A stretch of 64,000 bases of DNA from Gillisia sp. Hel_I_86. Its GTDB lineage: Bacteria > Bacteroidota > Bacteroidia > Flavobacteriales > Flavobacteriaceae. A program made the position numbers and the translations under genes. Position 1 is the first letter of the stretch. Every line of letters starts with the position of its first letter. Location: assembly GCF_007827275.1 (NCBI RefSeq), contig NZ_VISE01000001.1, forward strand, positions 3,286,001 through 3,350,000, given 5' to 3'. This document shows, in pieces, positions 47,535-50,800 of the stretch. A model generated the notes under the pieces. That model worked only from the letters and a program-made list of their open reading frames with translations, did no database searches and had not been told where the DNA came from.

Positions 47535-47570
47535 GAAAAAGGCTGCTTATTTTATTAAGCAGCCTTTCTT
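47535..47570. terminator. Bidirectional terminator between csbD-like gene and clpB
   Basis: A 12-bp perfect stem AAAGGCTGCTTA / TAAGCAGCCTTT. It abuts the last base of the clpB stop codon. Confidence 0.85.
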
Positions 47571-50179
47571 TATTGGTCTTTGTTTGCTAGTTCTTCCTGA
47601 TTCCTGAAAACCAGTGTGTCATCGAATTCATCCAATAATATGATGCTATCTGTTTTAACTCTTCCCGAAAGGATTTCTTTAGAAAGTTTGTTCAGCACCT
47701 CTCTTTGCAATACCCTCTTTACAGGTCGTGCCCCATATTGAGGGTCGAAACCTAGTCTTGAAAGATATGCCAATGCTTCTTTTGTAGCATCCAGCACAAT
47801 ACCTTGCTTTAAAAGCATTTTTTTAAGTCCATTCAACTGTAGGCCTACGATCTTTAGAATGTCCTTCTTGTTTAATGGTGCAAATAGAACAATATCATCT
47901 ATTCTATTGATGAATTCTGGGCGAACCGTTTGTTTTAATAACCCAAGTACTTCTACTTTTGCACTTTCCATGGCAGTGTCAAGATCTTTTACTGTTTCAA
48001 ATTTCTCCTGAATAATAGGAGAACCCATGTTGGATGTCATTATAATAATAGCATTCTTGAAATCGGCCAATCTTCCTTTATTGTCTGTAAGCCTGCCTTC
48101 ATCCAACACTTGCAATAAAATATTAAAAGTATCGGGATGTGCTTTTTCAATTTCATCCAATAGGATGACAGAATAAGGTTTTCTACGAACAGCTTCGGTA
48201 AGTTGGCCGCCTTCTTCGTAACCTATATATCCCGGAGGTGCTCCTACCAATCTACTAACCGCATGACGTTCTTGATATTCGCTCATATCTATTCTGGTCA
48301 TAGCAGACTCGTCATCAAAAAGATATTCTGCAAGAGCCTTCGCCAGCTCGGTTTTACCAACTCCAGTGGTACCCAAAAACAAGAAGGTCCCAATTGGCTT
48401 CTTTTGGTCTTGTAATCCGGCGCGACTTCTTCTTACAGCATCACTCACAGCTTGGATCGCCTCTTCCTGCCCAACTACACGCTTGTGCAATTCATCTTCT
48501 AGCTTCAGCAATTTTTCACGATCACTTTGCAACATTTTAGTAACAGGCACTCCGGTCCATTTTGCAACAACTTCAGCGATATCCTCGTAAGTTACTTCCT
48601 CTTTTATTAGCGTTTTGCTATCCTGATTGTTTTCTACTTGTTTCTGTAGTTCTTCTAACCGCTCTTGTGCTTCTTTAATTTTGCCATATCTAATTTCTGC
48701 CACTTTTCCGTAGTCGCCTTCACGTTCTGCCCTTTCGGCTTCCAGTTTAAATTGCTCGATATCAGATTTAGCCGATTGAATATTATCTACAACCTCTTTT
48801 TCGTTCTTCCATCGTGCATTCAATTCGTTGCGCTCTTCCTTAAGGTTGGCAAGATCGGCAGTTAAAATTTTTAACTTGGACTCATCGTTCTCCCGCTTGA
48901 TAGCTTCGATCTCAATTTCTAATTGGGTTACTTTTCTATCCAGCACATCTAATTCTTCCGGCTTGGAATTGATCTCCATCCTAATTTTTGATGCGGCTTC
49001 ATCCATAAGATCTATCGCCTTATCTGGTAAAAACCTATTGGTGATATAGCGTTGCGAAAGTTCTACAGCTGCGATAATAGCCTCATCTTTGATACGCACT
49101 TTATGATGAGTTTCATATTTTTCTTTGATCCCACGAAGAATAGAGATAGCACTTTCTGTATCTGGCTCATCTACTATCACTTTTTGGAAACGTCTTTCCA
49201 AAGCTTTGTCCTTTTCGAAATATTTCTGATATTCATCCAAGGTAGTGGCACCAATGGCTCTTAACTCTCCACGAGCTAAGGCCGGCTTTAAAATATTTGC
49301 GGCATCCATTGCTCCTTGTCCGCCACCGGCACCAACAAGCGTGTGGATCTCATCGATAAATAATACGATATCTCCTTCGCTTTCGGTAACTTCTTTTATT
49401 ACTGCTTTTAAGCGCTCTTCAAATTCTCCTTTATATTTGGCTCCAGCGATCAGCGCTCCCATATCTAGGGAAAATATTTGTTTGTTCTTTAAATTTTCTG
49501 GAATATCCCCATCTATGATCCTATGGGCTAGTCCTTCCGCAATTGCGGTTTTCCCAACCCCGGGTTCACCAACCAGCATCGGATTGTTTTTTGTTCTTCT
49601 GGATAGAATTTGGAGTACCCTCCTAATTTCTTCATCACGTCCAATAACAGGATCCAGTTTCCCTTCTTCAGCTAACTTATTGAGGTTTTTAGCGTATTTG
49701 TTAAGTGAGTTATAGGTTTCCTCAGCGCTTTTAGAAGTTACTCGATCTCCTTTACGCAATTCATCTATAGCCGCTCTAAGACTTTTTTCTGAAGCGCCCT
49801 GATCTTTCAAGATCTGAGCAACCTTACTGGAAGATTTGAATATTGCCAATATTAGATGTTCAATAGAAACATATTCATCTTTCATTTTACCGGCGATGCT
49901 ACTTGCGTCATTTAAAGTTGAAGAAGCAGTTCTTGAGAGCATTATGTCTCCCCCGGTTACTTTTGGGAAATTTTCTAAAGTCTTATCCAGTATTTGGGTA
50001 AAAAGCCCAATATTGATATTTAATTTTTTGAGCAGAAAGGGAGTTACATTTTCATCGACCAAGGTAATGCCTTTGAAGATATGTTCATTTTCTATTTGCT
50101 GATGACCCAATTCCTGAGCAAGTTGTTGTGCTTGCTGAATGGCCTCTTGTGATTTTATGGTAAAGTTGTTTAAGTTCAT
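47570..50179 (-). CDS. clpB: ATP-dependent chaperone ClpB
   Basis: An 869-residue disaggregase. Start MNLNNFTIKSQEAIQQAQ at 50179 is the family N-terminus, and an upstream frame to 50200 is unlikely. Order: Clp N-domain (to ~145), AAA-1 (GEPGVGKTAIAEG, FIDEIHTLVGAGG), the long coiled-coil middle domain (about residues 400-530, LDRKVTQLEIEIEAIKREN), AAA-2 (GTTGVGKTELAKAL, LLDEIEKAHPD) and D2-small. An inverted pair of operator-like 15-mers lies upstream of the start. Confidence 0.97.
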   Translation of the reverse strand: MNLNNFTIKSQEAIQQAQQLAQELGHQQIENEHIFKGITLVDENVTPFLLKKLNINIGLFTQILDKTLENFPKVTGGDIMLSRTASSTLNDASSIAGKMKDEYVSIEHLILAIFKSSSKVAQILKDQGASEKSLRAAIDELRKGDRVTSKSAEETYNSLNKYAKNLNKLAEEGKLDPVIGRDEEIRRVLQILSRRTKNNPMLVGEPGVGKTAIAEGLAHRIIDGDIPENLKNKQIFSLDMGALIAGAKYKGEFEERLKAVIKEVTESEGDIVLFIDEIHTLVGAGGGQGAMDAANILKPALARGELRAIGATTLDEYQKYFEKDKALERRFQKVIVDEPDTESAISILRGIKEKYETHHKVRIKDEAIIAAVELSQRYITNRFLPDKAIDLMDEAASKIRMEINSKPEELDVLDRKVTQLEIEIEAIKRENDESKLKILTADLANLKEERNELNARWKNEKEVVDNIQSAKSDIEQFKLEAERAEREGDYGKVAEIRYGKIKEAQERLEELQKQVENNQDSKTLIKEEVTYEDIAEVVAKWTGVPVTKMLQSDREKLLKLEDELHKRVVGQEEAIQAVSDAVRRSRAGLQDQKKPIGTFLFLGTTGVGKTELAKALAEYLFDDESAMTRIDMSEYQERHAVSRLVGAPPGYIGYEEGGQLTEAVRRKPYSVILLDEIEKAHPDTFNILLQVLDEGRLTDNKGRLADFKNAIIIMTSNMGSPIIQEKFETVKDLDTAMESAKVEVLGLLKQTVRPEFINRIDDIVLFAPLNKKDILKIVGLQLNGLKKMLLKQGIVLDATKEALAYLSRLGFDPQYGARPVKRVLQREVLNKLSKEILSGRVKTDSIILLDEFDDTLVFRNQEELANKDQ

Positions 50180-50211
50180 TAGTTTTAGTTTTAAATACAA
50201 AACATGAATAT

Positions 50212-50283
50212 CAAAGCATATACCAACAGAATGGAGCTGTCAAAATGACTGTTATCATTGAGTTTGGGCAGACATTTTGCCTG
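50212..50283 (-). promoter_or_regulatory. clpB promoter with an inverted operator-like pair
   Basis: On the plus strand CTGTCAAAATGACTG (50237-50251) and CAGACATTTTGCCTG (50269-50283) are inverted copies of a C(T/A)GnCAAAATGnCTG motif with centres 32 bp apart. The nearer copy contains TTTTGACAG on the clpB strand. It sits 20 bases ahead of TATGCTTTG (50212-50220), a TAnnTTTG-like -7 element with one extra base. The layout suggests a heat-shock repressor site overlapping the promoter. Confidence 0.5.
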
Positions 50284-50407: not shown

Positions 50408-50800
50408 ATGGGATTTTTTGATAGAATGTTCAAGTCTGAAAATAATGACAATAATCCAGAGAATAAATCTGTGCCTTGGATTCAACTAACTCAAATTGAG
50501 ACCTTAGAGGAAATAGCCAAAGATTCTTTTAACCAGCCAATTGCAATTTTAAAACATTCTACATCTTGTGGGATTAGTAGAATGGTTTTAAGACAATTTG
50601 AGCAAAATTATAATCTAGATCCAGATTCAATTAAATTATATTTCTTGGATCTTTTGAGATACAGGGATATTTCCAATAAGATTGCTTCCAGGTTTAATGT
50701 CCCTCATGAGAGTCCACAATTGATTATGATCAAAGATGGAAAAGCTGTTTATGATGCTTCCCATAGTGCGATCACTATAGAGAAATTGAAAACAGTGTAA
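50408..50800 (+). CDS. ytxJ: Bacillithiol system redox-active protein YtxJ
   Basis: A 130-residue thioredoxin-fold protein of the YtxJ family. The active site is ILKHSTSCGISRMVLRQFE, a single catalytic Cys. YLDLLRYRDISNKIASRF and VPHESPQLIMIKDGKAVYDASHSAI are typical of the family. Homologues are proposed to act as monothiol bacilliredoxins. This fits with bshB1 at 62.7 kb. A TATTTTTG -7-like element at 50381-50388 lies 20 bases upstream. Confidence 0.92.
   Translation: MGFFDRMFKSENNDNNPENKSVPWIQLTQIETLEEIAKDSFNQPIAILKHSTSCGISRMVLRQFEQNYNLDPDSIKLYFLDLLRYRDISNKIASRFNVPHESPQLIMIKDGKAVYDASHSAITIEKLKTV

Follow-up and report, generated by a model that had tools for sequence, protein, structure and literature searches.

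Transcription from sigma-54 promoters requires an activator of the AAA+ ATPase type, and the promoters are marked by the -24/-12 element TGGCA-N6-TTGC, in which the GG and the G(C) are 10 bp apart. Among the closest described systems, NtrC of Escherichia coli acts at glnAp2 through paired palindromic dimer sites, which are 32 bp apart at glnA, and PspF, which acts at pspA in the same species, has no sensor domain. Known sigma-54 enhancers lie at about -80 to -140; for an enhancer-binding protein, a site with its centre at -45 is unusually near. Chaperone genes are under dedicated control by other means in many bacteria, namely by HrcA at CIRCE, HspR at HAIR, CtsR, or the sigma factor RpoH; to our knowledge, Bacteroidota are without RpoH and mostly without HrcA. 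The protease group COG0542 is taken here to include ClpB.

Sigma-54 control of flavobacterial chaperones is already in print (PMC9723704; PMC12316311). A sigma-54 (SM4) regulon of Flavobacterium psychrophilum has been described with mapped transcription starts that carry -24/-12 elements, and its genes comprise groES-groEL, lon, dnaK, grpE-dnaJ, htpG, skp, clpB, a rhomboid protease gene and others (ISME Commun. 2021, PMC9723704). Neither an activator site nor a chaperone activator is given in the available part of that paper, which names three PF00158 proteins as candidates, and the words palindrome, operator and upstream activating are absent from its main text. Similarly, an in silico study across phyla found Bacteroidota sigma-54 promoters to be enriched at groEL, ibpA, groES, grpE, dnaJ and dnaK, with the chaperone enrichment highest in Flavobacteriia and extending to the protease group COG0542 (PLoS One 2025, PMC12316311); these are promoter predictions, and the part of the article at hand gives no activator site or cognate activator for the chaperones. 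Among the papers listed in a literature search that covered mostly titles and the openings of abstracts, none names this site or this activator for Flavobacteriales chaperones. The main text of PMC3162934 contains neither Bacteroid- nor Flavobacter-, and PMC2754498, as far as its accessible text goes, concerns a planctomycete. What is added here is a palindrome, a 13-bp and a 32-bp spacing rule, and an orphan regulator linked to groES as candidate activator.

The locus described below resembles the NtrC and PspF systems in its paired palindromes and in its candidate activator, a AAA+ protein with a Fis-type helix-turn-helix (HTH) that would act on sigma-54 and is, like PspF, without a sensor domain. 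It differs from them in a proximal site at about -45, in near-fixed spacing, in its chaperone targets and in a conserved linker between the AAA+ and HTH domains. The sites and regulators are also not those of HrcA, HspR, CtsR or RpoH, and the proposed regulator is neither a repressor nor a factor of the sigma-70 family but acts on sigma-54. With a probability of roughly 0.8, we read the motifs upstream of clpB as tandem sites of a sigma-54 activator that would serve a chaperone regulon of the Flavobacteriales, the most likely activator being the groES-linked orphan.

The clpB upstream region

The window is the whole stretch of DNA analysed, 64,000 nucleotides corresponding to genome bases 3286001-3350000, and the features of its clpB locus are collected in Table 1. 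A first-pass annotation had described two 15-bp motifs upstream of clpB as an inverted, presumably regulatory pair about three helical turns apart. Both motifs were found as written, with their centres 32 bp apart; the reading as a regulatory pair with this spacing is supported, and the pair is conserved at clpB across the genus. A ClpB start is available for 15 loci of the genus (G010, the sixteenth genome, has no full ClpB and was left out), and the distance between the two sites is exactly 32 bp in 14 of them and 33 bp in the remaining one. The inversion, in contrast, is an artefact: each motif is itself a palindrome of the form C-W-G-N-C-A NNN T-G-N-C-W-G (CAGNCA-NNN-TGNCTG) with the 11-bp core GNCANNNTGNC, so that two tandem dimer sites are predicted, and the copies appear inverted because of an AAA versus a TTT centre alone. 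Read on the clpB strand, the outer core GACATTTTGCC is GGCAAAATGTC, and in one relative (L135) both clpB copies have the same orientation, with GACAAAATGAC occurring twice. Relative to the predicted clpB start, the inner site is centred at about -45 and ends 13 bp before the -24 TGG, and the outer site is centred at about -77.

Table 1. Features of the clpB locus, in window positions
Feature	Position	Strand	Remarks
Inner (proximal) activator site, predicted	50237-50251	.	CTGTCAAAATGACTG; core 50239-50249, GTCAAAATGAC
Outer (distal) activator site, predicted	50269-50283	.	CAGACATTTTGCCTG; core 50271-50281, GACATTTTGCC
Sigma-54-type promoter, predicted	50211-50225	-	TGGTATATGCTTTGA; -24 TGG 50225-50223; -12 TTGA 50214-50211
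Predicted clpB transcription start	50199	-	12 nt past the -12 element; placed from sigma-54 promoter geometry
clpB	47570-50179	-	869 aa, starts MNLNNFTIKSQEAIQQAQ; NCBIfam TIGR03346 above cut-off

How rare the motif is depends on how much of it is demanded. The longer pattern CWGNCAAAATGNCWG has two exact matches in the window, both upstream of clpB; with up to two mismatches it has 10 against 6.5 expected, so that weaker matches are near chance. Across the whole genome of 4,245,106 bases, CWGNCANNNTGNCWG has two perfect matches, again both upstream of clpB, and with up to one mismatch it is found at 179 places versus 72 for the reversed control. Taken by itself, the 11-bp core is not rare, with eight occurrences in the window and 7.6 expected, and a single palindrome was therefore rejected as a marker of the regulon, being at chance level there; apart from the clpB pair, however, no two neighbouring cores in the window are closer together than 60 bp. 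Genome-wide, GNCAAAATGNC occurs at 43 places versus 44 for the reversed control, and most of the 43 are inside genes.

The sigma-54-type pattern, with two matches in the window against 0.9 expected, is likewise weak evidence when taken alone. Its -12 C is not conserved, as TTGC is present at 3 of the 15 clpB loci and in 19 of 77 anchored promoters. Because a sigma-54 promoter needs an ATPase activator, the clpB palindromes are better read as predicted activator sites. The gene divergent from clpB (50408-50800, + strand) encodes a YtxJ-type bacillithiol-system protein (TIGR04019 above cut-off).

The proposed regulon in this genome

The first-pass annotation had envisaged the motif before dnaK, groESL, htpG, clpB and hsp20 genes, and a search along these lines found perfect cores at clpB, hsp20, dnaK and htpG. 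In addition, grpE has a perfect core, and the core at groES is imperfect. The hsp20 and grpE sites surfaced through the GNCAAAATGNC search and the dnaK site through a family search, and a promoter consensus, TGGHAWHWDHWTTGM, was written from clpB, hsp20, grpE and dnaK; htpG was not used for it, and the 13-bp spacing was no part of the pattern. Run against the genome, this consensus gave 66 sigma-54-like sites versus 28 for the reversed control. Flanks were read at 62 distinct sites (four of the 66 were skipped for repeated flanks or a position near the end of a stretch), and a 6/6 palindrome stands exactly 13 bp before TGG at five of them: clpB, hsp20, dnaK, grpE-dnaJ and htpG, the last identified by eye from its product sequence. 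All other offsets from 0 to 59 at the same 62 sites hold one perfect palindrome, which is the clpB outer site at 45. Specificity comes only from the palindrome together with the promoter at 13 bp.

At groES the site in this genome, TTCATAATGTC, is weaker and the -12 element is without TTGC; the TGGHAWHWDHWTTGM pattern missed this gene, which would be a sixth member of the regulon. One of the two hsp20 genes has the site, and the second (L139) is without it. Two further observations were made during the genome searches. A perfect core, GACAAAATGGC, at C1:2129342-2129352 (L081:1501-1511) has TTTGC at the right distance with TGG absent; about 400 bp downstream of it is a gene identified by eye as that of a rhomboid protease. 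A tandem array at C1:68948-69659 (L007-L014) consists of eight copies of CTGTCATTCTGAAAG, in which steps of 103 and 95 bp alternate.

Conservation in relatives

The comparison with relatives took in grpE from 40 genomes of 16 families of Flavobacteriales, 16 of the 40 being from this genus, and dnaK from 14 of the 16 genus genomes, two having no full dnaK. The hsp20 genes, with one fragment (L130) excluded, were divided into a subgroup of 11 and a rest of 13 on the basis of the protein (WLP near the start) and without regard to the promoter. A palindrome matching at least 5/6 core letters, 12-14 bp before NGG-N10-G, is present at 15/15 clpB, 11/11 hsp20 subgroup, 37/40 grpE and 14/14 dnaK loci, and GG-N10-G stands at the fixed place in the same numbers; shuffled regions gave means of 0.06, 0.04, 0.42 and 0.12, respectively. 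For a perfect palindrome under the same 12-14 bp rule, the counts are 12/15, 8/11, 35/40 and 14/14, and the shuffled means are at most 0.06. Under the strict test, which demands a perfect palindrome exactly 13 bp before TGG-N-W-N6-TTG, they are 9/15, 7/11, 31/40 and 14/14, and twenty shuffles of each region, groES included, yielded none.

The 13 hsp20 genes outside the subgroup gave no perfect palindrome and two with at least 5/6. Upstream of three of them (L118, L120 and L123), a sigma-54-like TGGCATTTAATTTGC or similar sequence is present, preceded by several half-site-like TGTCA/TGACA repeats with no perfect palindrome, such as CTGTCATTTTTT and CTGTCAACTTTT at L123. The outer site is at 32 bp in 9 of the 11 hsp20 subgroup loci and at 31 bp in one more, but was found neither at grpE (0/37) nor at dnaK (0/14), so that among these four groups only clpB and the hsp20 subgroup have it.

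At groES, 95 loci were compared, 16 from the genus and 79 named loci of L296-L375 (L331, a cut-off locus, is without groES). With a looser promoter pattern, a perfect core was found in 1/95 of the upstream regions and at least 5/6 in 67/95. In 91/95, the half-site nearer the promoter, TGNC, is kept at exactly 13 bp from TGGCA, as TGTCAG in 80, and the other half-site and the -12 element vary, the latter being mostly without TTGC. From this pattern it looks as if groES were only partly under palindrome control.

Three grpE loci depart from the rule: in G035 there is no more than a half-site, in G039 the palindrome is perfect and precedes TTGCATAAATTTTGC by 12 bp, and in G032 a perfect palindrome is 33 bp before TGGCA. 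The last of these is a displacement by +20, or about two helical turns, and a second displaced site is found at groES of G039, at 24 bp (+11, about one turn). Together with the outer sites at +32 (three turns), these two displaced cases are close to whole turns and would place the activator on one face of the helix.

Candidate activator

Five proteins with a strong PF00158 match are encoded in this genome. Three of these enhancer-binding proteins (bEBPs) have a receiver and an HTH, one has a receiver without an HTH, and one is an orphan. The orphan consists of a AAA+ domain from residue 13 (PF00158, E=1.4e-66, with KGAFTGA, the GAFTGA loop, in the sequence), the lid, a stretch of about 115 residues that matches no Pfam family, and a C-terminal Fis-type HTH_8 at residues 377-415 (PF02954, E=3.4e-12); no receiver domain (PF00072) was detected at E up to 0.01. 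It was rejected as PspF, the domain order being the same and the TIGR02974 score 273 bits against a cut-off of 443.55, and as a two-component response regulator such as NtrC or ZraR for lack of an N-terminal receiver. By these memberships it is classed as an NtrC-type enhancer-binding protein that is neither PspF nor a response regulator. The nearest named relatives of the protein are from Gillisia, at 95% identity, and an AlphaFold model of a Gillisia orphan protein had a mean pLDDT of 44.7, too poor for use.

In this genome, groES-groEL follows the orphan gene at a distance of about 3 kb, in an order read by eye as miaB, orphan, lptE, an unnamed gene of about 290 codons, secG, groES and groEL. 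This linkage is kept in relatives: the groES start follows the orphan start by 3.1-5.0 kb in 79/80 named relatives, the eightieth being the cut-off locus L331. The orphan was present in 25/25 genomes checked, this genome and 24 relatives of 16 families; a script, whose test required two I/V in a row, labelled 21 of the 25 as orphans, and G016, G022, G026 and G029 were assigned to the same type from the printed sequences. Its HTH segment ELGISERTLYRKIK is nearly invariant across the 25 genomes, and the linker segment EREILYKVLFDMK between the AAA+ domain and the HTH shows no variation among the 20 named sequences that were aligned out of 80 found. The strict pattern found no palindrome-plus-promoter in the 500 bp upstream of the orphan at 80 named loci (one of which, L331, was placed about 150 bp off), nor at 25 rpoN loci, and thus no sign of autoregulation.

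A receiver-AAA+ protein without an HTH match is encoded at C1:628371-629537 (L173:3372-4538, - strand), about 5.4 kb from grpE, and judged by coordinates a PF00158 gene is found 4-6 kb from grpE in 14 of the 16 genus genomes. With no HTH, this receiver protein was rejected as the activator.

Single-activator genomes and a possible receiver-domain activator

It could still be that the palindromes are sigma-54 activator sites and that the activator is a receiver-domain bEBP of a two-component system, as three bEBPs with receiver and HTH are encoded in this genome and a receiver bEBP is a neighbour of grpE. We consider this unlikely, because the grpE neighbour has no HTH_8 match, because the linkage to groES belongs to the orphan, and because there are four genomes (G031, G034, G035 and G039) in which the orphan is the only strong PF00158 protein among the matches listed. 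With a single strong candidate, the sigma-54 promoters of these four should depend on the orphan. All four have rpoN (PF04552), as do all 25 genomes searched, this genome included. Three of the four keep a perfect grpE palindrome before the -24 element, at 13 bp in G034, 14 bp in G031 and 12 bp in G039; the fourth, G035, does not, which speaks against the orphan reading.

G031, G034 and G035 are genomes of 1.7-1.9 Mb, each 99% complete, and G039 is a single contig of 344,793 bases rated 100% complete. In G039, the interval from the orphan to groES-groEL holds a palindrome and no open reading frame of at least 80 codons. Three scanned stretches of this genome (28 kb) contain two perfect palindromes, at groES and grpE, with 0.8 expected; its rpoN locus and clpB stretch have none.

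Alternative explanations

A second alternative is that the promoter is blocked by an unnamed heat-labile repressor sitting on the palindromes, in the manner of HrcA, HspR or CtsR in other bacteria. Promoter-adjacent palindromes at chaperone genes are the usual geometry of a repressor, and a near-fixed 13-bp spacing with a centre at -45 is unusual for an enhancer. However, operators of the established kinds are lacking at the motifs. CIRCE, the HrcA operator, is TTAGCACTC-N9-GAGTGCTAA and has no match in the window at up to three mismatches; HAIR, the HspR operator, is CTTGAGT-N7-ACTCAAG and has three window matches at three mismatches versus 2.4 expected, none at the clpB sites; and the CtsR operator, direct heptads RGTCAAANANRGTCAAA, has seven window matches versus 14.4 expected, none at the clpB sites. 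Moreover, the sites end 13 bp short of the -24 element, and an activator would fit the 32-bp pair and the two cases of displacement by approximately whole turns. The first-pass annotation had placed a repressor over a -33 element, but the element conserved across the regulon is -24/-12, rather than TTG or TAnnTTTG. Taken together, a repressor seems to us distinctly unlikely.

The Bacteroidota housekeeping promoter consists of TTG at -33 and TAnnTTTG at -7. That clpB is driven by such a promoter, or by a sigma-70-like TTGACA-N17-TATGCT, with the motif forming the -33/-35 region, is very improbable: TTGACA-N17-TATGCT is present at clpB, TTG within the inner site is kept at 14/15 clpB and 28/37 grpE loci and TAnnTTTG occurs in 10/37 grpE promoters, but TTG is found in the sites of 4/11 hsp20 subgroup and 0/14 dnaK loci, TAnnTTTG at 0/15 clpB, 0/11 hsp20 subgroup and 0/14 dnaK loci, all of which have GG-N10-G, and sigma-54-type starts are listed for these genes in the accessible part of the F. 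psychrophilum study (PMC9723704). The earlier reading of the inner-site TTG as a -33 element agrees with its conservation at clpB and fails at hsp20 and dnaK. The sigma-70-like sequence was also rejected on frequency, with two promoter-like sites in the stretch versus 1.5 in shuffles.

Proposed mechanism and implications

A sigma-54-dependent regulon with the groES-linked orphan as probable activator would comprise clpB, the hsp20 subgroup, dnaK, grpE-dnaJ and htpG, together with groES-groEL at its weaker site, and is the best explanation of the predicted sites and promoters, their spacing, the gene linkage, the conservation and the single-activator genomes, all of which are read from sequence. 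The orphan may bind the palindromes, heat may be the signal, and chaperones may inhibit the activator by titration. In the mechanism that we propose, protein-folding stress would release the orphan from inhibition, cooperative binding of two orphan dimers to one face of the helix would be followed by assembly of a hexamer, and ATP hydrolysis would open the complex of RNA polymerase with sigma-54. Two dimers 32 bp apart would strengthen clpB and hsp20, and the orphan linker might be the part that receives the inhibition, perhaps from chaperones.

The regulon shares groES-groEL, dnaK, grpE-dnaJ, htpG and clpB with the SM4 regulon of F. psychrophilum as given in the available part of its description (PMC9723704). 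In that species, co-expression puts clpB in cluster B415 and groES, dnaK, grpE, htpG and lon in B254, so that clpB may have another input; the split matches that between two-site and one-site promoters, which is only a suggestion. The sigma-54 group is reported to be strongly induced on blood agar and somewhat by osmotic pressure, plasma and freshwater, and a heat test of the group was not found in the available portion of the paper (PMC9723704).

A broader proposal, to which we give somewhat less than even odds, is that a single sensor-less orphan encoded beside groES-groEL governs the Flavobacteriales heat-shock response, acting from about -45, and from -77 too at clpB and hsp20, that it is held back through its linker by the chaperones whose genes it induces, and that this circuit explains the survival of RpoN in insect symbionts of about 0.3 Mb in which most other regulation has been lost. 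Walczuchella, Uzinura and Blattabacterium are reported to keep RpoN, which the authors of a comparison called unusual and tentatively tied to nitrogen, and the table in the accessible part of that comparison lists RpoN as absent in one of four symbionts, apparently Sulcia (PMC3971599). The single-activator genome G039 need not be any of these three.

The regulon proposed here offers a concrete circuit, in which a single site with a single spacing rule and a single candidate regulator may account for the control of clpB, hsp20, dnaK, grpE-dnaJ, htpG and groESL. For a sigma-54 activator, action from -45 at near-fixed spacing would, if true, be mechanistically unusual. The circuit would also offer a reason for the retention of rpoN in reduced flavobacterial symbionts, an oddity in the comparison cited above, as far as its available text goes (PMC3971599).
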